From Bradyrhizobium sp. AZCC 2176 (GTDB taxonomy: Bacteria > Pseudomonadota > Alphaproteobacteria > Rhizobiales > Xanthobacteraceae): a stretch of DNA of 64,000 nucleotides. Under the pieces are notes generated by a model that saw only the letters and a list, made by a program, of their open reading frames with translations, made no database searches and was not told where the DNA came from. The position numbers and the translations under genes were made by a program. This document shows positions 34,419-45,163 of this stretch, one piece after another; positions within the stretch are counted from its first letter, which is position 1; each line of letters starts with the position of its first letter. The stretch spans positions 186,001 through 250,000 of the forward strand of contig NZ_JAZHRX010000001.1 of NCBI RefSeq assembly GCF_036924645.1, given 5' to 3'.

Positions 34419-35282
34419 CTACACCACAGTCCGGTGCCGCTCGATGCAAGTCTTCAAGACCGCATCCATCGACTTGTTCCACCAGTCGTTGGAAAAAATT
34501 TCGATCTCGGAATAGCCGGCAAACCCCTGTGCCTCGACCGCCGATCGCACAGAGGTGATGTCGATGACGCCGTCGCCCATCATGCCGCGGTCGTTGAGAA
34601 TGTCCTTGGTCGGCACCAGCCAGTCGCAGACGTGAAACGCCAGCAAGCGATCCTTTCCCGCGCGCGCGATCTGCGGCATCAATTCCGGATCCCACCAGAT
34701 GTGATAGACGTCGAGCGCGACGCCGAGCGCGCCGGTGCGCTGTGGATCGAGCTGGTCGCAAATATCCAGCGCCTGCTTCGTCGTGTTCACGCAGGCGCGA
34801 TCGGCGGCATAGACCGGGTGCAGCGGCTCGATCGCCAGCGGCATGCTGGCCTGCTTCGCATATTCGAGCATTTCGGCGATGCCGTCATGCACCTGCGTAC
34901 GCGCAGCCGCGATGTCTTTCGAGGTTGCGCTTCCCGGCCGCGAATATTGCGGCAGGCCGCCGACGACCAGCACGATGCACGGCGCGCCCAGCGCCTTGGC
35001 TTCGTCGACGGCGCGGCGATTGTCGTCGCGCGCCTCGATGCGGTGCGCCGCATCGGCGGTGAACATCCCGCCGCGGCAGTAGCCCGACAGCTCGAGCCCG
35101 GCGTCGTGCACGGCCCTCACCGCACGCTCAAGGCCAACGGCAGCGACCTGATCGCGCCAGGGATCGATGGCGCGGATGCCATGGCGCGCGCAGGCCTCGA
35201 TGATGGCTGTAAGATCGCCCTGCTTGCGGACGGTTGCCGTATTCAGCGACAGCCACCGATGATCGGAAGAAAAATCGCGCAT
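34419..35282 (-). CDS. Sugar phosphate isomerase/epimerase-like TIM-barrel protein
   Basis: A 287-residue xylose-isomerase-like TIM barrel. Acidic and His metal-ligand candidates occur in the expected strands: AIEPLHP (Glu), ALDVYHIWWD (Asp/His), AFHVCDW (His) and EIEIF (Glu). Such proteins isomerise or epimerise sugars, keto-sugars or inosose intermediates. The start is ATG 35282, which overlaps the stop of the DUF993 gene (TGATG), so it is translationally coupled and last in the operon. The frame extends upstream to 35327 inside DUF993, without support. The substrate is presumably the product of the Gfo/Idh-DUF993 steps. Confidence 0.88.
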   Translation of the reverse strand: MRDFSSDHRWLSLNTATVRKQGDLTAIIEACARHGIRAIDPWRDQVAAVGLERAVRAVHDAGLELSGYCRGGMFTADAAHRIEARDDNRRAVDEAKALGAPCIVLVVGGLPQYSRPGSATSKDIAAARTQVHDGIAEMLEYAKQASMPLAIEPLHPVYAADRACVNTTKQALDICDQLDPQRTGALGVALDVYHIWWDPELMPQIARAGKDRLLAFHVCDWLVPTKDILNDRGMMGDGVIDITSVRSAVEAQGFAGYSEIEIFSNDWWNKSMDAVLKTCIERHRTVV

Positions 35283-36475
35283 CAGGACTCGATGCCGCGC
35301 GTTGCCAGCACCGTCTTCATGCGCCATGTCGCCCGTTCGGGGTTGGAGAGCAGCCCGGCCTTGTCGGCGAGGCGAAACAGTTCGGCCAGATGCAGCGTGG
35401 AGCGCGTGCTCTCCTGCCCGCCGACCATGGTGAAATGATCCTGGTGGCCGTTGAGATAGGCCATGAACACGATACCGGTCTTGTAGAACCGCGTCGGTGC
35501 CCGGAAGATATGCCGCGACAGCGGCACCGTCGGCCCCAGCACGTCGTGGAAGCCGGCCTCGTCGCCGGCGGCCAGCCGCGACAGCGCATAGGACGCCGCC
35601 GGCGCGATGGCGTCGAAGATGCCGAGCAGTGCGTGCGAAAATCCGCTGTCGTCACCGGCGATCAGTTCGGCATAATTGAAATCGTCGCCGGTATACATCT
35701 TGACGTTCTTGTCCAGCCGCCGGCGCATGTCGATCTCGCGCTGCTTGTCGAGCAGCGAAACTTTTACGCCATCGACCTTGGCGGCGTTGGCGTTGATGAT
35801 GGCAACAGCCGTGTCCATCGCCTTGTCGAGGTTGCTGGTGCCCCAATAGCCAGCCAGCGCCGGGTCGAACATGTCGCCCAGCCAGTGGATGACCACGGGT
35901 TCGCGGACCTGTGACAGCACGCGGTTATAGACTTTTGCGTAGTCGTCGGCACTGCGGCCGAGCTTTGCCAGCGCGCGCGAGGCCATCAGGATGATGCGGC
36001 CGCCCGCCTTCTCCACCGCCGCGATCTGTTCCTCATAGGCGTGAATGACGTCATCAATCGTCCTGGCATCTTCCACCGCGAGATGATCGGTGCCGGCGCC
36101 GGAAAACACCAGCGCGTTGCCCTTTGCCTTGGCGGCCTTCACCGAACGCTGGATCAATTCCAGCGAAGTCGGCCAGTCCAGCCCCATGCCGCGCTGCGCG
36201 GTGTCCATCGCTTCGGCGACGCCGAGGCCGAGATCCCAGACATGCTCGCGGAACGCAATGGTGCGGTCCCAGTCGATCGCGGATGACAGCCACGGGTCGT
36301 TATCGGCAAGAGGATCCGCCACGACATGCGCGGCCGAGAAAGCCACGCGGTTGAGCGTGCCGTCAAGCCTTGCCGGAAACGTCCGCGACGCCGCCAGGCG
36401 ATAGGTTTCGATCGAACGATCCGCGGTCGGCAGCCTCAAGGACAGCGATGACATCGGCAGGACGGGCTTGTTCAT
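35282..36475 (-). CDS. DUF993 family protein, dihydrodipicolinate-synthase-like aldolase
   Basis: A 397-residue protein that I recognise as DUF993, a divergent branch of the dihydrodipicolinate synthase/N-acetylneuraminate lyase TIM-barrel class. Segments such as GGRIILMASRALAKLG and VVIHWLGDMFDPALAGYWG occupy the places of active-site strands, and KVSLLDKQREIDMRRRL includes the Lys expected to form a Schiff base. It would therefore cleave or dehydrate a keto-sugar acid, but I know of no characterised member. It lies 12 bases after the Gfo/Idh gene and overlaps the isomerase gene by one base. Confidence 0.85.
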   Translation of the reverse strand: MNKPVLPMSSLSLRLPTADRSIETYRLAASRTFPARLDGTLNRVAFSAAHVVADPLADNDPWLSSAIDWDRTIAFREHVWDLGLGVAEAMDTAQRGMGLDWPTSLELIQRSVKAAKAKGNALVFSGAGTDHLAVEDARTIDDVIHAYEEQIAAVEKAGGRIILMASRALAKLGRSADDYAKVYNRVLSQVREPVVIHWLGDMFDPALAGYWGTSNLDKAMDTAVAIINANAAKVDGVKVSLLDKQREIDMRRRLDKNVKMYTGDDFNYAELIAGDDSGFSHALLGIFDAIAPAASYALSRLAAGDEAGFHDVLGPTVPLSRHIFRAPTRFYKTGIVFMAYLNGHQDHFTMVGGQESTRSTLHLAELFRLADKAGLLSNPERATWRMKTVLATRGIES

Positions 36476-36487
36476 GGCTAGGCCTCC

Positions 36488-37639
36488 TCACACCTTGATC
36501 GGGGCAACGTCGATCCAGCGCCGCTCGCGCCAGCTCTGCAGCGCGCATTCGGCAAGCTGCACGCCCTTGGCACCCTCCAGCAGCGTGTATTTATAGGGCG
36601 CATCCTCGCAGACATGGCGGATGAACATTTCCCACTGCTCCTTGAAACCGTTGTCGTAGACGACGTTCTCCGGAACTTTCTGCCAGTCAGCATAGAAATC
36701 ATGGGTGCGCTTCTCGTCCGGATTCCAGACCGGGCGCGGCGTCGCCTGGCGTGCCTGGATCACGCAATCGGTCAGGCCCGCCACGGCCGAGCCGAGCGTG
36801 CCGTCGACCTGGAAAGTGACGAGGTCGTCGCGGTAGACCCGCGTCACCCAGCTCATGTTGATGTGCGCGATCACGCCGCCCTTGAGGCGGAAGGTGGCAT
36901 AGGCGGAGTCATCGGCGGTCGCCGTGTATTTCTTGCCCTTCTCGTCGAAACGCTCGGGGATATCGGTCGTGCCGAGGCAGGAGATGCTTTCGACCTCGCC
37001 GAAGAGATTGTCCAGCACGTAGCGCCAGTGGCAGACCATGTCGAGAATGATGCCGCCGCCGTCCTCGCTGCGGTAATTCCACGACGGCCGCTGCGCCTCC
37101 TGCCAGCCCCCTTCGAACACCCAATAGCCGAACTCGCCGCGCACCGAGAGCATGCGGCCGAAGAAGCCGGAATCGCGCAGGAAAGCCAGCTTCTTCAGGC
37201 CCGGCAGGAACAGCTTGTCCTGCACCGTGCCGTGCTTGACGCCCCTGGAATTGGCGAGTTTGAGCACCGCGACCGCCTCATCGAGATTGGTCGCGATCGG
37301 CTTCTCGCAATAGACGTGCTTGCCCGCATTGATCGCCTTGGTCAGCAATGACGGACGGGCCTGCGTCGTGGCGGCGTCGAAGAAGATCGTATCGTTCTTG
37401 TCGGCCAGCGCCTTGTCGAGATCGGTCGACCAGCGCTCGACGTTGAAGCTCCTGGCGAGGCGCTCGACCTTTTCTGCGTCGCGGCCGATCAGGATCGGGT
37501 CGGGCAGCATGCGGTCGCCGTTGGACAGCAGCACGCCGCCCTGGTCGCGGATCGCGATGATAGAGCGGATCAGGTGCTGGTTGAGCCCCATGCGGCCGGT
37601 CACGCCGTTCATGATCAGGCCGAGGCGTTTGGTCGTCAT
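36488..37639 (-). CDS. Gfo/Idh/MocA family NAD(P)-dependent oxidoreductase
   Basis: A 383-residue dehydrogenase. The N-terminal LGLIMNGVTGRMGLNQHL is a Rossmann-like loop of unusual form (NGVTGRMG rather than GxGxxG). The catalytic EKP of the family is intact in VYCEKPIATN, and a late His-containing segment (LDMVCHWRYVLDNLFGE) matches the active site. Such enzymes oxidise sugar hydroxyls to keto-sugars. ATG 37639 has GGAGAAAG upstream and overlaps the enolase-family stop codon (ATGA). It is the third step of a four-enzyme operon headed by an ABC transporter. Confidence 0.9.
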   Translation of the reverse strand: MTTKRLGLIMNGVTGRMGLNQHLIRSIIAIRDQGGVLLSNGDRMLPDPILIGRDAEKVERLARSFNVERWSTDLDKALADKNDTIFFDAATTQARPSLLTKAINAGKHVYCEKPIATNLDEAVAVLKLANSRGVKHGTVQDKLFLPGLKKLAFLRDSGFFGRMLSVRGEFGYWVFEGGWQEAQRPSWNYRSEDGGGIILDMVCHWRYVLDNLFGEVESISCLGTTDIPERFDEKGKKYTATADDSAYATFRLKGGVIAHINMSWVTRVYRDDLVTFQVDGTLGSAVAGLTDCVIQARQATPRPVWNPDEKRTHDFYADWQKVPENVVYDNGFKEQWEMFIRHVCEDAPYKYTLLEGAKGVQLAECALQSWRERRWIDVAPIKV

Positions 37640-39039
37640 ACTGCTTTCTCCAAGGGAATTCTGGCTGTGGGCTGCGCGAGCGGCGACATCGCCGACCAAT
37701 CCGGATGAACTGAGGTGGCGAAGCCCGGTGTGGTCAGCGACCCCGTCAGGAGATCGCCGTCATGAATCGCGAGCCGGACCTTGCCGCTGTCGCCGACATA
37801 GAGATCGGGATGCGCCGATAAAAACGCGTCCGCCTCGGCAGCGGGCGTATCGCCGAAGCCGTCGACATAGTGATGGCCGTTGCGCTCGGCATGGGTAACG
37901 CCGATCAGCGCGCCGAGCGCGAGATCCTGCTGCACCGCCAGTCCCGCCTGGCAGGTGAGATCCTCGCCGGCGATGAAGCACTTTTCGCCGGCTGCGCTCC
38001 ACTTGACCGCGCGCGTAGCGTTGATGGCCGACTTGTAGATGCCCTTGCAGGATTTCGAGGAAATGCCGCGATAACCGAGCGCCCGGGCCACCGGGAATGC
38101 CTCATAGGAATCGTCAGCCTCGTCGACGATGAAGTCGCGCCGAGCCAGTGCGCCGAGCGGTGTTTGACGCGTGATGTCGCGCGGCATCGGCTGCTCGATG
38201 TAGAGCAATTTTTCCGCGATCGGCCGCAGCGTGGCGTCGCGATCGAGCCGCTCGACCAGCGAGTTCAAGCCAGCAAGATCGGCATACTGCTCATTGGCAT
38301 CGAGCGTGACGCGGTAGTCATAGGGCAGCGTGGCGAGCTCCTTGCCGATCCTTATCAGGCGATCCGCATCATGTGCGGGATCGCCGTTGAGCTTGAGCTT
38401 GAAGTAGCGTGCGCAAGCGTTTTCCTTCTGGTCGGCGACGCCGCCCTTGCCTTCGACCTTGTCATCCATCCCGACCGTGTGCCGGATCGCCACGCGCTCC
38501 AGCCGCTTGCGGCCTGCAAGAAACTGCGACACGTCGGCATCGGCCAGATCGCGCGACAGCCGCGCATCGACGCCAGCGATATTGGCCGCCATGCCATCGA
38601 AGAAATTGGTCCCGGTACAGCGCAGCAGTGCATCCAGGATCGCCTTGTCGATTTCAGCCGGCCCATAAGCCGCGGCCAGCGGCGGAATGTCTTCCCTGGC
38701 GCAGGCCGCCACCTGCGCGCCGATACACGCCGTGTGTAGACCGAATGCGGTCTCGAAGGTGGAATGCGCCAGATAGAGCTCGCGCGCGATCATCAGCGAG
38801 CGCCGCAATTCCGTGACTGTTTCCTCCGGCGAGAGGTGCGGCCGCTTGTCGAACCATTTTGCGACCAGGAATTCGGCGCTGGCGCCCGTCGCCCTGCCCT
38901 TGCCTTCGACCTCGATCTCGACGCGCACGAAAGCCTGCGGCGTCGCGTTGATAACGACCGCGCCGAACCGGAACGGCCGGGCGAAGCGCACCGGACGTTC
39001 AAAGAAGGAAATGTCCTTTACGGTCAAGCGATAAGGCAT
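37636..39039 (-). CDS. Enolase superfamily (mandelate racemase/muconate lactonizing type) protein
   Basis: A 467-residue enolase-superfamily protein, longer than the usual 360-400 residues. The KxK motif (YFKLKLNGD) supplies the acid/base Lys, the Mg ligands occur in TLDANEQY (Asp), YIEQPM (Glu) and VDEADDS (Asp/Glu), and GISSKSCKG offers a second Lys on the opposite face. This pattern suggests dehydration or epimerisation of a sugar acid through an enediolate. It lies 11 bases after the ABC ATPase gene and overlaps the dehydrogenase gene by ATGA, so it should act on the imported substrate or its first product. Confidence 0.85.
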   Translation of the reverse strand: MPYRLTVKDISFFERPVRFARPFRFGAVVINATPQAFVRVEIEVEGKGRATGASAEFLVAKWFDKRPHLSPEETVTELRRSLMIARELYLAHSTFETAFGLHTACIGAQVAACAREDIPPLAAAYGPAEIDKAILDALLRCTGTNFFDGMAANIAGVDARLSRDLADADVSQFLAGRKRLERVAIRHTVGMDDKVEGKGGVADQKENACARYFKLKLNGDPAHDADRLIRIGKELATLPYDYRVTLDANEQYADLAGLNSLVERLDRDATLRPIAEKLLYIEQPMPRDITRQTPLGALARRDFIVDEADDSYEAFPVARALGYRGISSKSCKGIYKSAINATRAVKWSAAGEKCFIAGEDLTCQAGLAVQQDLALGALIGVTHAERNGHHYVDGFGDTPAAEADAFLSAHPDLYVGDSGKVRLAIHDGDLLTGSLTTPGFATSVHPDWSAMSPLAQPTARIPLEKAV

Positions 39040-39050
39040 CGAGCCAGCTT

Positions 39051-39899
39051 TCAGTCCAGCGCGCTTTGGGTGAAAAAGTGCTTGCGAATCCGCTGCACCA
39101 GTTCGGTGAAGGCGGGATCCGCCATCGCATCCAGCGAGCGCGGGCGCGGCAGCGGCACGTCGTAGATCGCCGCGATCGCGCCGGGACGTTCGGTCATGAC
39201 CAGCACGCGGTCGGCGAGAAACACGGCTTCCGGGATAGAATGCGTGATCAGCAGCACGGTCTTGCCGGTTTCGCGCTGGATCCGCATCAGCTCGACATTC
39301 ATCTTCTCGCGCGTCATGGCGTCGAGCGCGCCGAACGGCTCGTCCATCAGCATGATCTTGGGGTCATGCACCAGCGCGCGGCAGATCGAGGCGCGTTGCT
39401 GCATGCCGCCGGACAATTGCCACGGCAGTTTCTTTTCGAAGCCTTCGAGGCCGACCAGCTTCAGCAGCGCTTTCGCCCGCGGCAGATACTCGTCGCGCGG
39501 CAACTTCTTCATGTCGATCGGCAACATCACGTTGGACAGAATGTTGCGCCAGGGCAGCAACAGCGCGTTCTGGAACACGATGCCGACATTGCCGTGCGGC
39601 TTCGTCACCTGCTCGCCTTCGACCAGGATTTCACCGGTCGACGGCGCCAGCAGCCCGGAGATCATTTTCAACAGCGTGGACTTGCCGCAGCCGGACGGCC
39701 CGACCACGACAAAGAACTCGCCCTCGTTGATGTGGAAATCCAGCGGCCGCAGCGACGGCACGTCGCCATCGCGCGAGCGATAGGTTTTTGAGACGCCGGA
39801 CAGCGTGATGCCCGGCGCCGCGGCGCCGGCGCGATCGGACACCAGGCGCAGATGCGCGCCTGGCTGATCGATCTCGATTGGTTTGGTCGCCGGGTTCAT
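39051..39899 (-). CDS. ABC transporter ATP-binding protein, nitrate/taurine/sulfonate type
   Basis: A 282-residue ATPase of the SsuB/TauB/NrtD class. Walker A is GPSGCGKST, the signature LSGGMQQR, Walker B IMLMDEPFGALD, and the H-loop is LLITHSIPEA, with the VFLADRVLVMTERPG that marks this subfamily. An extra N-terminal stretch of about 30 residues precedes the first strand. It pairs with the permease at 41073 and binding protein at 40016. A palindromic repeat lies in the 116-base gap before it. Confidence 0.94.
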   Translation of the reverse strand: MNPATKPIEIDQPGAHLRLVSDRAGAAAPGITLSGVSKTYRSRDGDVPSLRPLDFHINEGEFFVVVGPSGCGKSTLLKMISGLLAPSTGEILVEGEQVTKPHGNVGIVFQNALLLPWRNILSNVMLPIDMKKLPRDEYLPRAKALLKLVGLEGFEKKLPWQLSGGMQQRASICRALVHDPKIMLMDEPFGALDAMTREKMNVELMRIQRETGKTVLLITHSIPEAVFLADRVLVMTERPGAIAAIYDVPLPRPRSLDAMADPAFTELVQRIRKHFFTQSALD

Positions 39900-39926
39900 T
39901 TAGCTCATTCCGTTGTCGAGATGCCC

Positions 39927-40006
39927 GTCATTCCGGGATGGTCCGAAGGACCAGACCCGGAATCTCGAGATTCCGGGTTCGATGCTGCGCATCGCCCCGG
40001 AATGAC
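39927..40006. repeat. Inverted repeat GTCATTCCGGG...CCCCGGAATGAC
   Basis: The outer arms GTCATTCCGGG (39927 onward) and CCCCGGAATGAC (to 40006), and an inner palindromic ACCCGGAATCTCGAGATTCCGGGT, form a branched hairpin between the binding-protein and ATPase genes. It is a dispersed-repeat type typical of this group of genomes (memory). It interrupts an operon, so it may set the ratio of binding protein to ATPase. Confidence 0.65.
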
Positions 40007-40015
40007 CGCTTGTGT

Positions 40016-41014
40016 TCACGAACCGCCCTGCGGCAGGTAGTCGTTGGTATAAAACGCCTTCGGGTTATCCTTGGCCTTGGCATCCAACCCGCCATACTCA
40101 ACCATCAGATTGACGGTGTCGGTCATGTTCTGGTCCGTCACCTGGAACGGCCGCTTGGCCTTGGTTTCAGCCGTGCGGTAGAGCGGGATCGTCAACTCAA
40201 AGCCCTGCGTCAGCGTTTCGATCTTGCCGCCCTTCGGGTTGGCGTCGAGGATCGACTGCGCCGCGCCCTTCGGGTCCTTCTCGGCGGCTTCGACCGCTTT
40301 CGTCGTTGCCGACATGAAGCGCTTGACGAGATCGGCATTTGCCTTGACGAACTCGGTGTTGGCGACGACGCCCGAGCAGACCATGTTGATGCCGTAGTCG
40401 GCGAACTTGATCGCGTTGACGTCCTTGCCGGTGGCGTCCTTGATCTTCATCGACTGGTCCATGACGTAGCCGAGCAACAGGTCAGCCTGGCCGTTGATGA
40501 CGGCGTTCAGCTTGGTCTGGCCGTCGCCCGCCACGGTCTGGAAATCGCTTTCCTTCAGGCCGGTCTTCTTCAGGAACAGCGGCCAGATCTGCGTCATCGA
40601 GTCGGCCGGCGTGATCGCCACCGTCTTGCCCTTGATGTCCTCGGGCTTCTTGATGTTCTTTTCGACAAAGCCCATCGCCGACATCGGGCTGGTCTGCAGC
40701 AATACGCCGGTGGCAACGATCGGTGCGCCCTTCACGGCCGCGCGCATCATGGTGGGCACGTCGACATAGCCGAAATTGGCGGTCTTGGCCGCAACGGCCT
40801 GCGTGGTCGCCGCCGAACCGCGGCCTTCCTGGATTTCGAGATCGATGCCCTCGGCGGCATAGATGCCCTTGGCCTTGCCGTAATAGAACGGCGCGTGCTC
40901 GCCATAGACGTACCAGTTCAGCATCAGCACCACCTTGTCAGCGGCCGATGCCGGCAGCACTGAAAGCGCGGTCCAGATCAAGGCGGCGGAAATCGCCGCT
41001 ATCGTTCGTATCAT
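40016..41014 (-). CDS. ABC transporter substrate-binding protein, NMT1/SsuA-like
   Basis: A 332-residue periplasmic binding protein. MIRTIAAISAALIWTALSVL, ending in PASAA, is the signal peptide. The mature start VVLMLNWYVYGEHAPFYYGKAKGIYAAEGIDLEIQ is the THI5/NMT1 pattern (nitrate, sulfonate, pyrimidine-precursor binding). ATG 41014 is preferred over 41020 because GGGAGG lies six bases before it and directly abuts the other. The permease gene ends 58 bases upstream. In this operon the ligand is more likely a sugar acid or related carboxylate than a sulfonate, because all downstream enzymes are sugar-acid types. Confidence 0.92.
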   Translation of the reverse strand: MIRTIAAISAALIWTALSVLPASAADKVVLMLNWYVYGEHAPFYYGKAKGIYAAEGIDLEIQEGRGSAATTQAVAAKTANFGYVDVPTMMRAAVKGAPIVATGVLLQTSPMSAMGFVEKNIKKPEDIKGKTVAITPADSMTQIWPLFLKKTGLKESDFQTVAGDGQTKLNAVINGQADLLLGYVMDQSMKIKDATGKDVNAIKFADYGINMVCSGVVANTEFVKANADLVKRFMSATTKAVEAAEKDPKGAAQSILDANPKGGKIETLTQGFELTIPLYRTAETKAKRPFQVTDQNMTDTVNLMVEYGGLDAKAKDNPKAFYTNDYLPQGGS

Positions 41015-41072
41015 GGTCATCCTCCCGTTGGTGTTGATGCGGCCCTTGAGGCGGGCCGATTTCTGGTTTGGC

Positions 41073-41882
41073 TTACGAAGCAAATATGACGTCGTCGCGC
41101 TGGCTGACGTGCCAGGGAATCACGAGGCGTTCGATACGGTCGACGACCCAGAACAGGATCACGCCGAGTAGCGCCAGAATCACCAGTGCGGCAAACATCG
41201 TCGGCAGGTCGAACGTTCCGATCGAGCGCTGCATCACATAGCCGATGCCGGAATTGGAGCCGACGAATTCACCGACCACGGCGCCGACGACGGCGAGCGT
41301 CACCGACACTTTCAGACCGGAAAAGATCGCGGGCATCGCATGCGGCAGATTGACCGCGCAAAATACCTGGAAGCGGCTGCCCTGCATCGCGCGCGCCAGA
41401 TCGACCATGTCAGGATCGACCGATTTGAACCCCTGAACGGCCGACACGACGACGGGGAAGAATCCGAGCAGAAACGCCGAAATCACCTTCGGAATGATGC
41501 CGAAACCGAACCACACCACGAACAGCGGCGCGATCGCGATCTTCGGCACGGACTGCGAAAACACCAGCAGCGGATAGACATAGCTTTCCACCGTCTTCGA
41601 TCCCGCGATCAGCATGGCAATGGGAATGCCGAACACGGCCGACAGCAGAAAGCCGCAAATGGTCGCGTAGGTGGTGGGCCAGGCCTGCCGCAACAGTTCC
41701 GGCCACTCCGTCCGCAGCACTGCCACGACATCGCCGGGCGCGGGGATCTGATAGGCCGGAATCTGGAACAGGCGAATGGTGACGTCCCAGGCCACCACGA
41801 TGAACAGCAGGAACAGAAACGGCCGCACCCACGCTGCATTCAGCGCTTTCGACACGCCACTCTCGCGCTTCAACTCCGCCAC
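41073..41882 (-). CDS. ABC transporter permease, SsuC/TauC-like
   Basis: A 269-residue inner-membrane permease with about six hydrophobic helices, starting with FLFLLFIVVAWDVTIRLF. The cytoplasmic EAA loop reads DLARAMQGSRFQVFCAVNLPHAMP. GTG 41882 has GGGAG seven bases upstream. It is the first of the transport genes and follows the TetR gene by about 220 bases containing a palindromic repeat. Together with the binding protein and ATPase it makes a complete importer. Confidence 0.93.
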   Translation of the reverse strand: MAELKRESGVSKALNAAWVRPFLFLLFIVVAWDVTIRLFQIPAYQIPAPGDVVAVLRTEWPELLRQAWPTTYATICGFLLSAVFGIPIAMLIAGSKTVESYVYPLLVFSQSVPKIAIAPLFVVWFGFGIIPKVISAFLLGFFPVVVSAVQGFKSVDPDMVDLARAMQGSRFQVFCAVNLPHAMPAIFSGLKVSVTLAVVGAVVGEFVGSNSGIGYVMQRSIGTFDLPTMFAALVILALLGVILFWVVDRIERLVIPWHVSQRDDVIFAS

Positions 41883-41976
41883 GTCCCGCTCCCTGGTGAT
41901 CCTCTCTTGGGGAGAATTTAACCCGTTGGATAAATACTGGCAAGCGGGTTTTCGTGCGGCAACTTGTGACTCGGTC

Positions 41977-42095
41977 GTCGTTCCTGCGAACGCAGGAACC
42001 CATAACCATCGGCGTCAATTGTTACTGCAGGATCAAAGGCTACCGCCTGACATCGAGGGGCCGCGGCGTATGGGTCCCTGCTTCGCAGGGACGAC
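41977..42095. repeat. Inverted repeat GTCGTTCCTGCG...CGCAGGGACGAC with long centre
   Basis: Between the TetR gene and the permease gene, arms GTCGTTCCTGCGAACGCAGGAACCCATA (41977 onward) and TATGGGTCCCTGCTTCGCAGGGACGAC (to 42095) face each other and each arm is itself a small hairpin. The family recurs at 417, 49687, 57837 and 60945. Confidence 0.65.
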
Positions 42096-42099
42096 AAAA

Positions 42100-42807
42100 T
42101 TAGACCGGCTGATGCGCCGGCGACCGCACGGCCGGCGCCTCGGCCTTGCCGAAATCCGCGGTCGATTTGCCCGTCAGCGCCGCCAGTACCAGCGCCACCA
42201 TGTGGGCGAGGCGCTCGTCCCGCGCCTCCTTTTTCAGAAGATCGCGGCCGAAGATCACCGAGAGGGTCGCACTGTTGGAAAGATAGAAGAAGCATAGCCC
42301 GGCGATCGAAATGTAGAGCTGCACCGGATCGACCGCGACGCGAAAATCGCCGCTTTCGACGCCGCGCGTCACCACCGTGCGGATCATCTCGACGAACGGC
42401 GAGTGCATCGATTTAACCTTGGTCGAGCGCTTAAGATGGCGCGCTTTCGCAAGATTTTCGGTGTTTAGCAGGGCCAGAAACTCCGGGTTGCGGAGGAAAT
42501 AGTTCCAGGTGAAGTCGATCAGCCGCTCGATCGCCTCGGGCGGATCGAGATGTTCGAGGTCTAGGCCGCGCTCTTCGGAGCGGATCTTTTCATAAGCACC
42601 TTCCAGCACCGCAAGGTAGAGATTTTCCTTGTTGCCGACGTGATAGTACAGCATGCGCTTGTTGGCACCGGCATTGACCGCGATGCGGTCGACGCGCGCG
42701 CCGGCCAGGCCATGGGCGGCGAACTCCTGCTTGGCGGCCTCGAGAATGCGGATCCGCATCCCCTCAGGGTCGCGCTGCCATTTCTGAACGTGTTTTGCCT
42801 TTGCCAA
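42100..42807 (-). CDS. TetR family regulator, probable controller of the downstream transport/catabolic operon
   Basis: A 235-residue regulator as started here. The helix-turn-helix lies in MRIRILEAAKQEFAAHGLAGARVDRIAVNAGANKRMLYYHVGNKENL, followed by a helical effector domain. The open frame continues to GTG 42879, but that codon lies inside the arm of a long inverted repeat; the TTG at 42807 (MAKAKHVQKWQRDPEG) matches how relatives begin, though its ribosome site is weak. The C-terminal tail (KAEAPAVRSPAHQPV) is Pro-rich. It is upstream of and in line with the ABC transporter and enzyme genes, so it probably regulates them. Confidence 0.88.
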   Translation of the reverse strand: MAKAKHVQKWQRDPEGMRIRILEAAKQEFAAHGLAGARVDRIAVNAGANKRMLYYHVGNKENLYLAVLEGAYEKIRSEERGLDLEHLDPPEAIERLIDFTWNYFLRNPEFLALLNTENLAKARHLKRSTKVKSMHSPFVEMIRTVVTRGVESGDFRVAVDPVQLYISIAGLCFFYLSNSATLSVIFGRDLLKKEARDERLAHMVALVLAALTGKSTADFGKAEAPAVRSPAHQPV

Positions 42808-42874
42808 ATCAATCGCCCGATGGTCGTACGAAGCAAGCTGTAGCACGCAAGGTGCGGTTTGAGAATGAAGGTTG

Positions 42875-43051
42875 TTCACCCTCCCCTGGAGGGGGAGGGT
42901 CGGCTCACGTTGAGCGAAGCGAAATGTGAGACCGGGTGGGGTGATCTCTCCACTCGCACCACCGCCTCAATGGAGAGACTGTCACCCCACCCCGTATCGC
43001 ATCTTGCTTCGTGCGATACGATACGACCCTCCCCCTCCAGGGGAGGGTGAA
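42875..43051. repeat. 177-bp element with perfect 28-bp terminal inverted repeats
   Basis: The left arm 42875-42902 and right arm 43024-43051 are perfect reverse complements over 28 bases (TTCACCCTCCCCTGGAGGGG then GAGGGTCG and its mirror). A second inner pair (GGGTGGGGTGATCTCTCCA versus TGGAGAGACTGTCACCCCACCC) continues the fold, so the full element makes a long hairpin. It lies between the TetR gene and the VOC-protein gene, covering the apparent GTG start of the TetR frame. No transposase frame is inside. It behaves like a MITE or a mobile palindromic repeat. Confidence 0.8.
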
Positions 43052-43058
43052 CTTCGCC

Positions 43059-43907
43059 TCACGCATCCTTCCCCGCCGACGGCTGCACCAGTAGCGTCGG
43101 GACGCCGCTGGTGCCGCTGCGTACCGTCATGACCCGCGTTCCCGGCTTGCGGCCGGTGCGGACTTCCGAGACATCGGCCCCTGCCTGAACGAGCCGCGCA
43201 TGGGTGGCGTCGATGTCGGAGACGCGCCAGCACAGGCCGCGCAGCCAGTCCTGTGACGTATCCGTCTCCTTGCCCGGCCGGTGCGTCACCTCGACAATGA
43301 GATCGCCGCAGCGGAAGAACATCAGCCGGCCCCAATCGGGGTGCGAACGGTCGAGCGCCATGTCGAGGCCGAGCCGCGCGCCATAGAGCGCTGCGGCCCG
43401 TTCGGGATCCGACGTCGAAACCACGACATGGTCCATCGCCGTGATCGATCCGGGCGTGGTTCGCACCGACAGCGGCCGCTCCTTGTCGCGCTCGAGGAAG
43501 AACATGCGGACGCCGCGCGTGGCCTCTGTTGCGGCGCGCGTGCGCTTCCATGACAGCGTCGCGCCTGAGATCGCGTCCTGGCTTTCGACGTCGGCAATGG
43601 CATCGGGCTTCAGCGTCAGCCGGTCGAGCCTGCGATGCATCCTGGCGATGTCGCTGGTTCGGAAGCAGATGCTTGCGAGCCCCTCGCCCTGTGCGGCCAG
43701 CACGGCGCGAATGCGCTCCGCACTGGCGCCCTCGCCGCTCGGCGCCATCAATTCCAGCGTCGTGTTGTCGAGTGTGAACAGGACGCGGTCGGCGCCCTCG
43801 CCGCTGTTCCGCCAAGCCGGCATGCGGGCAAACAAGGTCTGGTAAGCGGCGGCGGCTGCGTTGATGTCGCCGGTGAGAACGACGACGTGATCGAGGCCGG
43901 TGATCAC
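43059..43907 (-). CDS. VOC (glyoxalase-like) protein with two domains
   Basis: A 282-residue protein made of two vicinal-oxygen-chelate modules: the first starts ITGLDHVVVLTGDINAAAAAYQ and the second, near residue 160, AMDHVVVSTSDPERAAALYGARLGL. The conserved His in each DHVVV and late Glu residues (EVTHRPG) are possible metal ligands. GTG 43907 is the start, overlapping the TGA of the glutamate dehydrogenase gene in a GTGA arrangement, so it is translationally coupled to an amino-acid dehydrogenase. Lyase, dioxygenase and resistance functions all occur in this fold; the substrate is not evident. Confidence 0.82.
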   Translation of the reverse strand: MITGLDHVVVLTGDINAAAAAYQTLFARMPAWRNSGEGADRVLFTLDNTTLELMAPSGEGASAERIRAVLAAQGEGLASICFRTSDIARMHRRLDRLTLKPDAIADVESQDAISGATLSWKRTRAATEATRGVRMFFLERDKERPLSVRTTPGSITAMDHVVVSTSDPERAAALYGARLGLDMALDRSHPDWGRLMFFRCGDLIVEVTHRPGKETDTSQDWLRGLCWRVSDIDATHARLVQAGADVSEVRTGRKPGTRVMTVRSGTSGVPTLLVQPSAGKDA

Positions 43908-45163
43908 GGAAAAAGCCCCCGCACGTTCTTGGCGGCGCGCACCTTCTCGACGCCGATCGCCATCGCAGCCGTGCGGTGCGGAACCTTGTCGGCCCTGGCC
44001 CGCTGCAGCATCTGGTCGAAGGCGCGATCTAGGATCGCATACTCGCGCCGCGTCACCTCCTCTTCCTCCCAGAACAATTGCTGCAGGTCCTGCACCCATT
44101 CGAAGTAGCTGACCACGACGCCGCCGGAATTGCAGAGAATGTCGGGGATCAGGAACAATTCATCTTGACGCTTCTCCAGCACCAGATCGGCTTCCGGCGT
44201 GGTCGGCCCATTGGCGCCCTCGGCCAGCACGCGGCACTTGAGATTTTCGGCGACCTTGGCGTCGATCACGCGCTCCATCGCCGCCGGCACCAGCACTTCG
44301 CAAGGCAGCGTGAGAATCTGTTCGGGGTCGAAGGCGAGCTCGTTGGAGAATCCGGCGATGCTGCCATGCTTGCCGGCATGCCGCATCAGCGCAGGAATAT
44401 CGAGCCCGGCCGGATCATGCAGTGCGCCAGTGTGATCGCTGACGGCGATGATCTTCAGGCCATATTGTTGTAGTTCCAGCGCGGCGTAGGAGCCGACATT
44501 GCCAAAGCCCTGGATCACGGCGGTCGCGGTGCCGGGATTGATCGACAACTCCTTCAACACGCGCTTGGCGAGATAGGCGACACCGCGGCCGGTTGCTTCG
44601 CGCCGGCCGAGCGTGCCGCCGGATGAGACCGGCTTGCCGGTGACGATCTCGGTCACGGTTTGGCCCTGATACATCGAATAGGTATCCATGAACCAGGCCA
44701 TCACCTGCTCGTTGGTGCCCATGTCGGGCGCCATCACATCGGTGTGCGGACCGACGAACGGGATCATCTCCTGCATATAGCGCCGCGACAGCCCTTCCAA
44801 CTCGCGCTTGGAAATGGTGGAGAGATCGACATTGACGCCGCCCTTGGCACCGCCATAGGGCAAACCGACAAGGGCACATTTCCAGCTCATCCAGATCGCG
44901 AGCGCCGCGACCTCGCCGATGTCGACCGAGGGTGCAAACCGCGTGCCGCCTTTGGTCGGACCGAGGGTGAGGTGGTGCTGGACACGATAGCCTTCGAACA
45001 CCGCGACGGTACCGTCGTCGCGGTGGATCGGGCAAGAGACAGTCACTGCCCGCTTCGGCATCAGGATGCGGTCGCGCTCGTCCATCGGGATTTCGAGATG
45101 GTTGGCGATGACACCAAACTGGTTAACCGCCATGTCGAACACCGGACCGGAATAAACCGTCAT
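43904..45163 (-). CDS. Glu/Leu/Phe/Val dehydrogenase, glutamate dehydrogenase-like
   Basis: A 419-residue NAD(P)-dependent glutamate dehydrogenase. GGTRFAPSVD and the catalytic PYGGAKGGVNVD (the Lys that binds substrate) are present; the nucleotide fold is AVIQGFGNVGSYAA, followed by IIAVSDHTGA. NGPTTPEAD completes the family pattern. ATG 45163 has GGAGG five bases upstream; ATG 45166 is an alternative. It probably interconverts glutamate and 2-oxoglutarate. The stop overlaps the VOC gene. The 45164-45392 gap holds divergent promoters for this gene and the sugar kinase; I see no clear hairpin. Confidence 0.93.
   Translation of the reverse strand: MTVYSGPVFDMAVNQFGVIANHLEIPMDERDRILMPKRAVTVSCPIHRDDGTVAVFEGYRVQHHLTLGPTKGGTRFAPSVDIGEVAALAIWMSWKCALVGLPYGGAKGGVNVDLSTISKRELEGLSRRYMQEMIPFVGPHTDVMAPDMGTNEQVMAWFMDTYSMYQGQTVTEIVTGKPVSSGGTLGRREATGRGVAYLAKRVLKELSINPGTATAVIQGFGNVGSYAALELQQYGLKIIAVSDHTGALHDPAGLDIPALMRHAGKHGSIAGFSNELAFDPEQILTLPCEVLVPAAMERVIDAKVAENLKCRVLAEGANGPTTPEADLVLEKRQDELFLIPDILCNSGGVVVSYFEWVQDLQQLFWEEEEVTRREYAILDRAFDQMLQRARADKVPHRTAAMAIGVEKVRAAKNVRGLFP

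Follow-up and report, generated by a model that had tools for sequence, protein, structure and literature searches.

What does a run of eight genes do that places an NMT1-type ATP-binding cassette (ABC) importer ahead of four putative enzymes, one of them a member of the domain family of unknown function DUF993? The question is raised by a 64,000-nucleotide stretch of Bradyrhizobium sp. AZCC 2176 (contig NZ_JAZHRX010000001.1, positions 186,001 to 250,000; hereafter the window), whose genome is 7.15 Mb in a single contig. Comparison of DUF993 loci beyond the genus revealed a core of a Gfo/Idh dehydrogenase, DUF993 and a TIM-barrel enzyme in the type of locus to which the window belongs; the NMT1 importer and the enolase-like enzyme appear as entry parts that are exchanged from locus to locus. 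We see an even chance that the operon provides regulated uptake of a small polyhydroxylated carboxylic acid and its non-phosphorylative breakdown by oxidation, isomerisation and retro-aldol cleavage, with a three-carbon (C3) fragment at the level of glycerate. If true, DUF993, present in 36 of the 398 genomes of a sample of the window's phylum, would gain an assigned reaction, and a further carbon route would be known in soil bacteria, rhizobia and Burkholderia-type bacteria.

Gene set and conservation of the operon

All eight genes were found intact on the minus strand, from 42879 to 34419 of the window, as follows:

42100..42879, minus strand: TetR/RutR-like regulator (TetR_C_29 4.6e-43, TetR_N 1.6e-10)
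41914..41939, minus strand: conserved 26-base motif in the gap between the TetR and permease genes, candidate operator or promoter element (consensus match)
41073..41882, minus strand: ABC permease of the TauC/SsuC type (BPD_transp_1 5.3e-34)
about 40016..41020, minus strand: NMT1-type periplasmic binding protein (NMT1 6.6e-45)
39051..39899, minus strand: ABC ATPase (ABC_tran 2.1e-33)
37636..39039, minus strand: putative enolase-superfamily protein of 467 aa (fold model, and PF13378 in homologues)
36488..37639, minus strand: Gfo/Idh/MocA dehydrogenase (Pfam GFO_IDH_MocA; PDB 3oqb)
35282..36475, minus strand: DUF993, candidate class I aldolase with the fold of the dihydrodipicolinate synthase (DHDPS)/N-acetylneuraminate lyase (NAL) superfamily (PF06187 630 bits; PDB 4dnh)
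34419..35282, minus strand: AP_endonuc_2 TIM-barrel protein, putative isomerase/epimerase (AP_endonuc_2 1.1e-37; PDB 3ju2)

A sequence-only reading of this DNA had described the eight genes in one direction and named their families, and Pfam agreed with it for TetR, BPD_transp_1, NMT1, ABC_tran, GFO_IDH_MocA, DUF993 and AP_endonuc_2. The tight coupling that it had reported for the last four genes was also recovered, with an 11-base gap between the ATPase and enolase-like genes, ATGA at the enolase-like/Gfo junction, a 12-base gap between the Gfo/Idh and DUF993 genes and TGATG at the DUF993/TIM junction. The TetR gene was present as described, but its start had been placed at 42807, an inner codon, and the open reading frame (ORF) begins at 42879. 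NCBIfam and Pfam scans covered nine window proteins, and the NCBIfam matches listed for the regulator, binding protein and catabolic proteins all stayed under the curated cut-offs.

Gene order was surveyed in the best 80 of 550 loci matching the window DUF993 (the close-relative loci), as the sequence-only reading had proposed. The complete eight-gene order was found in 69 of the 80; the remaining 11 were without one or more genes, perhaps partly because of contig ends. The nearest loci met in other genomes were mostly labelled Bradyrhizobium. The eight genes look like one operon, and their co-expression is suggested by two sequence features, the junctions and the conserved motif. DUF993 proteins 88-89% identical to that of the window were also met on contigs titled Frankia sp. 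RB7 (L073) and Reyranella metagenome-assembled genome (L021), possibly through naming or binning errors.

The DUF993 core and its exchangeable parts

The surroundings of DUF993 were compared in a census of 123 loci outside the window's genus, comprising 17 annotated plasmid loci, 26 loci of a phylum sample and 80 loci of class and family samples. These fell into 79 Gfo-type, 25 short-chain dehydrogenase/reductase (SDR)-type, 2 shikimate-dehydrogenase-type and 17 unclassified loci. In 78 of the 79 Gfo-type loci, the labelled gene immediately preceding DUF993 on its strand was Gfo/Idh, and 77 of the 79 had a TIM-barrel gene nearby. Since 69 of the 80 close-relative loci keep the full order and Gfo/Idh precedes DUF993 in all but one Gfo-type locus, the operon is more than a chance arrangement. 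In L084 (8119-8943) and L196 (6360-7175), a shikimate-dehydrogenase-like gene (Shikimate_dh_N 3e-19 and 6e-17, respectively), labelled ThiF adenylyltransferase in L084, occupies a dehydrogenase place near DUF993.

The census loci were drawn by search and include near relatives and possible duplicates between collections; 47 of the 123 are the places fetched out of those of a one-family sample, the 17 plasmid loci are those used among 147 plasmid records with a DUF993 match, and same-genus loci from the phylum and class samples were left out. Genes were labelled by six-frame tblastn with reference proteins from the 17 annotated plasmid loci (which are also counted), the window, further fetched loci and P0341, and matches with less than 33% identity or less than half the query length were dropped. 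Gene calling by longest ORF or by codon-position scoring was rejected, since the GC-rich DNA yielded many shadow ORFs and DUF993 was overlooked at some loci. The ten neighbour proteins that were scanned separately are mostly unlabelled longest-ORF calls, and several without a Pfam match may be such shadows. In the underlying samples, which overlap, DUF993 was over the cut-off in 36 of 398 phylum-sample, 35 of 385 class-sample and 84 of 399 one-family genomes, and in 0 of 14 control genomes.

Around the Gfo-type core, the parts are swapped. The window combines its NMT1 importer with the enolase-like gene; a tripartite tricarboxylate transporter (TTT) with a second TIM-barrel gene and an enolase-like gene was found in 20 of the 79 loci, a DHDPS-like protein near 14 (often with other NMT1 parts), an SDR with a beta-hydroxyacid dehydrogenase (beta-HAD) near 10, and a sugar ABC importer with extra Gfo/Idh genes near 8. 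A TetR relative was near 60 of the 79; a single sighting of a TetR gene or of an orphan TTT binding protein is weak evidence, as both are widespread. A quick FastTree tree of DUF993 took in 122 of the 123 loci together with the window, and 42 of its 120 inner branches were drawn open. On it, the label required 4 changes when only Gfo- and SDR-type rows were counted and 8 for the Gfo group against all others, and the presence of the enolase-like gene within the Gfo type required 20. With 20 changes against 4, the enolase-like gene seems to be gained and lost while the core persists. Dehydration or epimerisation by this enzyme had been read as a step of the pathway; the gene was present in 39 of the 79 Gfo-type and in 0 of the 25 SDR-type loci, so that it is not obligatory and looks like an adaptor.

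The sequence-only reading had noted that NMT1/SsuA importers usually serve sulfonates or pyrimidine precursors; related cores adjoin TTT, NMT1 or sugar ABC systems, and importer class is not diagnostic. TTT or NMT1 parts were near 63 of the 79 Gfo-type loci, 18 of these calls being orphan TTT binding proteins (45 of 79 without them), and near 0 of the 25 SDR-type loci. Carbohydrate ABC parts were near 10 of 79 Gfo-type versus 16 of 25 SDR-type loci, and GMC oxidases near 1 of 79 versus 17 of 25. These opposite distributions lead us to infer an acid as the meeting point of both types, imported by the Gfo type and made from a neutral compound by the SDR type. The carboxylated substrate of the sequence-only reading is likely, judged from the importers and the enolase-type enzyme.

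A cluster of Sinorhizobium meliloti strain Ak57 (L085) illustrates this exchange. It shares TetR, Gfo/Idh, DUF993, enolase-like and TIM-barrel genes with the window (identities of 59-66% for Gfo, DUF993 and TIM and 43% for the enolase-like protein), but in place of NMT1 it has an importer of the sugar type (CUT1) together with three additional Gfo/Idh genes, and its order is Gfo-DUF993-enolase-TIM. PDB titles link the S. meliloti DUF993 to SMc04132 and the TIM-barrel protein to SMc04130; by gene order and the papers' labels, the Gfo/Idh would be SMc04133 and the TetR SMc04134. SMc04132, SMc04133 and SMc04135 are tabulated in a section on PhaR-regulated genes that gives no pathway (PMC12542648), and SMc04134 appears as a regulator in a predicted network, in a part that gives no pathway either (PMC11387232). 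The name, spelled 'DUF993', occurred in no paper of the open-licence library searched, which mostly lacks subscription literature; a paper on non-phosphorylative aldopentose enzymes (PMC9795676) is among its contents. For three of the four enzymes, structures of close relatives have been solved (3ju2, 4dnh and 3oqb among them), under names such as 'Uncharacterized protein', 'Oxidoreductase' and 'sugar isomerase'. No assigned reaction of DUF993 and no characterised pathway with this gene set was found in that library, in agreement with the sequence-only reading, which knew of no reaction for DUF993 and saw a candidate undescribed pathway. We therefore regard the pathway as unassigned but of a familiar overall type, in which a compound is oxidised, isomerised and cleaved.

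Conserved residues, the proposed route and its rivals

The enolase-like protein had no Pfam match at E of 0.001 or below and no PDB sequence match at E of 1 or below; its superfamily is suggested by a fold model and by PF13378, precomputed for many Sinorhizobium homologues of about 44% identity. The predicted fold contains the capping domain and barrel of the enolase superfamily (mandelate racemase/muconate-lactonising enzyme type), and K214/K216, D247, E282, D306 and K329 were invariant in 46 sequences, giving the KxK, Asp/Glu/Asp and second-Lys pattern. We take Lys216 and Lys329 to be candidate acid/base residues, and Asp247, Glu282 and Asp306 candidate metal ligands. The family is large, with 7995 of 8000 scored candidates at E of 0.001 or below, yet none of the 120 members listed as closest has a Pfam domain; many Sinorhizobium relatives match PF13378. 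A 775-aa protein (P0046) that looked like a fusion was set aside, its first 300 residues being, by eye, probably the ATPase gene in the wrong frame.

In the Gfo/Idh protein, Lys113, Asp200 and His204 were invariant in ten sequences, and the PDB match was 3oqb, named 'Oxidoreductase' (E=4.7e-240). In the TIM-barrel protein, Glu152, Asp191 and Glu259 were invariant in 15 sequences and His217 nearly so, with PDB matches to 3ju2 ('uncharacterized protein SMc04130', E=3.3e-100), 3qc0 ('sugar isomerase') and 7vpf ('Xylose isomerase'). Its NCBIfam matches, all far under cut-off, were, best first, the L-ribulose-5-phosphate, 5-keto-gluconate, fructoselysine and psicose epimerases, followed by 2-oxo-tetronate isomerase and hydroxypyruvate isomerase.

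DUF993 had been called aldolase-like, and its model indeed has the TIM-barrel fold of the DHDPS/NAL superfamily (DapA, NanA, KdgD, MosA). Lys238, invariant in 18 sequences, aligned in hhalign with an invariant lysine of the DHDPS-family profile and is a candidate Schiff-base lysine; the kinship with DHDPS is suggested by the predicted fold and hhalign. The protein differs from that superfamily in being about 100 residues longer, with 11-19% identity in fold alignments. The PDB match was 4dnh (SMc04132, E=1.8e-161). In a single-sequence PDB search, DHDPS entries came at E of 0.04-0.07, under four designed or repeat proteins (1e-6 to 0.006) that are taken for chance matches, and the lower Foldseek ranks included other TIM barrels. 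The label 'dihydrodipicolinate synthase family protein' that plasmid records give to DUF993 was not accepted as evidence of DHDPS activity. P0341 (696 aa) joins a beta-HAD domain to DUF993; it may be either a genuine fusion or two adjacent genes that no stop codon separates.

The reactions of the route that we infer, their order, the substrate and the products would be as follows. The NMT1-type importer would take up the acid. The Lys/Lys pair of the enolase-like enzyme would remove the proton beside the carboxylate, most likely epimerising and less likely dehydrating the compound, and epimerisation would let stereoisomers enter. The Gfo/Idh enzyme would use NAD(P) to oxidise a hydroxyl group, leaving a ketone, and the metal-dependent TIM-barrel enzyme would shift or epimerise the carbonyl in the manner of ketose epimerases, 2-oxo-tetronate isomerase or hydroxypyruvate isomerase. 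DUF993 would then form a Schiff base at Lys238 and cleave the keto acid by retro-aldol reaction, with no phosphorylation before cleavage. One product would probably be a C3 compound at the level of tartronate semialdehyde, hydroxypyruvate or glyceraldehyde, passing through glycerate to 2-phosphoglycerate. Tentatively, and at somewhat below even probability, DUF993 may be the founding member of a class I aldolase/C-C lyase branch with an altered substrate site, a shared cleavage step across undescribed catabolic routes that recruited Gfo/Idh, SDR or shikimate-dehydrogenase-like enzymes and several importers, with enolase, second TIM-barrel, DHDPS-like and beta-HAD enzymes as adaptors for the entry of stereoisomers.

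The fate of the carbon is suggested by neighbouring genes. Glycerate kinase accompanied 4 of the 79 Gfo-type loci and 14 of the 25 of SDR type; as the window genome has one match, its chance occurrence within 17 kb is estimated, from this one genome, at well below 1%. Beta-HAD was near ten Gfo-type loci, in nine of them as the labelled gene next before the TIM-barrel gene, with tartronate semialdehyde reductase and L-threonate dehydrogenase as best models (three scanned, all far under the cut-offs). Together, glycerate kinase, beta-HAD and the TIM-barrel model matches point to a C3 product at the glycerate level. One beta-HAD match in the window's own genome (G000:C1:5287719-5288591) holds one TGA and is a possible pseudogene.

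Several observations weigh against the proposed route. Not every DUF993 locus has the core: a TIM-barrel gene was near no more than 10 of the 25 SDR-type loci and 3 of the 17 unclassified ones, and a labelled dehydrogenase was absent from 17 of the 123. A simple sugar-acid route would have no use for the CoA-transferase found in 12 of 25 SDR-type clusters or the enoyl-CoA hydratase found in 11 of 25. The ten beta-HAD loci all belong to a single bacterial family, and single sightings could be chance, since the window genome alone has ten matches to the tartronate-semialdehyde-reductase model. The window operon has neither glycerate kinase nor beta-HAD; elsewhere in the genome there is one glycerate-kinase match under and one tartronate-semialdehyde-reductase match over the cut-off. 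We know of no NMT1 importers for sugar acids. The top Foldseek match of the enolase-like model is 3tte, a mandelate-complexed Bradyrhizobium enzyme, and with this entry first the fold does not settle between the muconate-lactonising and mandelate racemase subgroups. In DUF993, hhalign placed Ala93 at the second Thr of GTTGE and His197 at the Tyr of YNxPG (D-T92-A93-Q-R and I-H197-W-L-G), two motifs that we take to be the carboxylate motif and tyrosine of DHDPS/NAL enzymes. The DUF993 model is modest (predicted local distance difference test score, pLDDT, 66), a second hhalign run gave E=1.1e-4 with a probability of 56%, and a PDB profile search returned 4dnh as the sole match at E of 0.01 or below, with no DHDPS.

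The best-surviving rival, unlikely though with an appreciable share of the probability, is a cyclitol or cyclic-acid route, in which Gfo/Idh would oxidise a ring hydroxyl, the TIM-barrel enzyme dehydrate or epimerise the keto-ring and DUF993 open it by retro-aldol cleavage. Inositol dehydrogenase is an analogue of the oxidation, and IolE or 3-dehydroshikimate dehydratase of the TIM step. Consistent with it, the best NCBIfam model of the Gfo/Idh protein was inositol 2-dehydrogenase, yet at 68.6 bits far under the cut-off of 355. The shikimate-dehydrogenase-like proteins in the dehydrogenase slot of L084 and L196 also fit, as do the extra Gfo/Idh genes that occur with sugar importers at 8 of the 79 Gfo-type loci and the acyl-CoA dehydrogenase of L118, whose best model is acryloyl-CoA reductase and second-best cyclohexane-1-carbonyl-CoA dehydrogenase, both under cut-off. 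Glycerate kinase would not be expected on such a route, and IolB/C/D/J were absent among the nine window proteins scanned, as was IolE. Compared with inositol and rhizopine catabolism (IolG/MocA, IolE/MocC), the operon likewise sets a Gfo/Idh gene beside an AP_endonuc_2 TIM-barrel gene, but adds DUF993 and the enolase-like gene.

The oxidation, AP_endonuc_2 isomerisation and C-C cleavage of the proposed acid route resemble the L-threonate/D-erythronate pathway (LtnD/DenD, OtnI, OtnK, OtnC). The operon differs from it in that Pfam found no DUF1537 kinase or class II aldolase among its proteins (DUF1537 was absent from all nine scanned), its cleavage candidate is the DHDPS-fold DUF993 and its dehydrogenase is Gfo/Idh, LtnD-like beta-HAD occurring near ten other loci.

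Improbable is a glycoside or uronide route, with Gfo/Idh making a 3-keto sugar, the TIM-barrel enzyme eliminating the aglycone and DUF993 splitting the freed keto sugar. AP_endonuc_2 proteins serve such steps, carbohydrate ABC genes were near 10 of 79 Gfo-type loci, and the Gfo/Idh protein scored 52.6 bits with the levoglucosan dehydrogenase model and 19.2 bits with that of disaccharide 3-dehydrogenase; these scores are far under the cut-offs of 650 each, which does not place the operon in levoglucosan catabolism, the importers are mainly of the carboxylate type, and an enolase-type enzyme requires a carboxylate. Alicyclic or aromatic acid metabolism, with DUF993 helping to degrade ring-derived acids alongside CoA-dependent steps, is very improbable: benzoyl-CoA epoxidase boxB lies near DUF993 in L166, L169, L172 and L179 (boxC in three of them), and besides the CoA-transferase and enoyl-CoA hydratase genes, acyl-CoA dehydrogenase was near 6 of the 25 SDR-type loci, but the four box loci are all of one genus code and CoA-transferase was near 0 of 79 loci of the Gfo type, that of the window. 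These four loci have no labelled Gfo/Idh. The slightest chance is left to scavenging of sulfonates, nitrogen heterocycles or pyrimidine precursors, suggested at first sight by the NMT1 Pfam match, the RutR-like regulator and the THI5-type proteins that come second to 4nmy among the PDB matches of the binding protein, because the SsuA (63.5 bits, cut-off 163.5), taurine (TauA; 30.2, cut-off 304.25) and RutR models are all far under cut-off, Pfam detected neither a sulfonate monooxygenase or other desulfonating enzyme nor an amidohydrolase domain among the operon's eight proteins, and the importer is replaced in other clusters. The permease scored best with SaoP (107.3 bits, cut-off 295).

Regulator, intergenic motif and neighbouring genes

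The TetR protein scored 55.6 bits with the NCBIfam RutR model (cut-off 368). The gap between its gene and the permease gene is poorly conserved except for a 26-base block, which begins 45-64 bases upstream of the permease. Among 54 intergenic sequences including that of the window, obtained from 82 tried (80 loci, the window and L128) where both genes were held and the gap was under 400 bases, the consensus CAGTATTTATCCAACGGGTTAATTTC was matched exactly by 38, with one mismatch by 15 and with two by 1; the window copy, judged by eye, has one mismatch. The 20-base core of the motif had a single genome site at three or fewer mismatches, as did a reversed control pattern. The block would suit a local operator or promoter element. 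A -35/-10-like pair with six-base inverted arms was noted at 41915-41950 of the window; the exact hexamer pair recurred in 1 of 54 and the arms in just 7 of 54 sequences, so the palindrome was dropped and only the 26-base block was retained.

In eight loci of one family (L131, L134 and L137-L142), genes for CoA-transferase, enoyl-CoA hydratase and aldehyde dehydrogenase run divergently from DUF993, which adjoins a LacI-like gene and has no labelled dehydrogenase nearby; L137 has an N-formylglutamate amidohydrolase-like gene downstream. Upstream of the TetR gene in the window lies a two-domain glyoxalase-like (VOC) gene (43059-44099), which was labelled in 50 of the 80 close-relative loci and replaced by an overlapping glutamate-dehydrogenase-like label in 17 further ones. 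As ORFs overlap at 43904-44099, the VOC gene probably starts further in.

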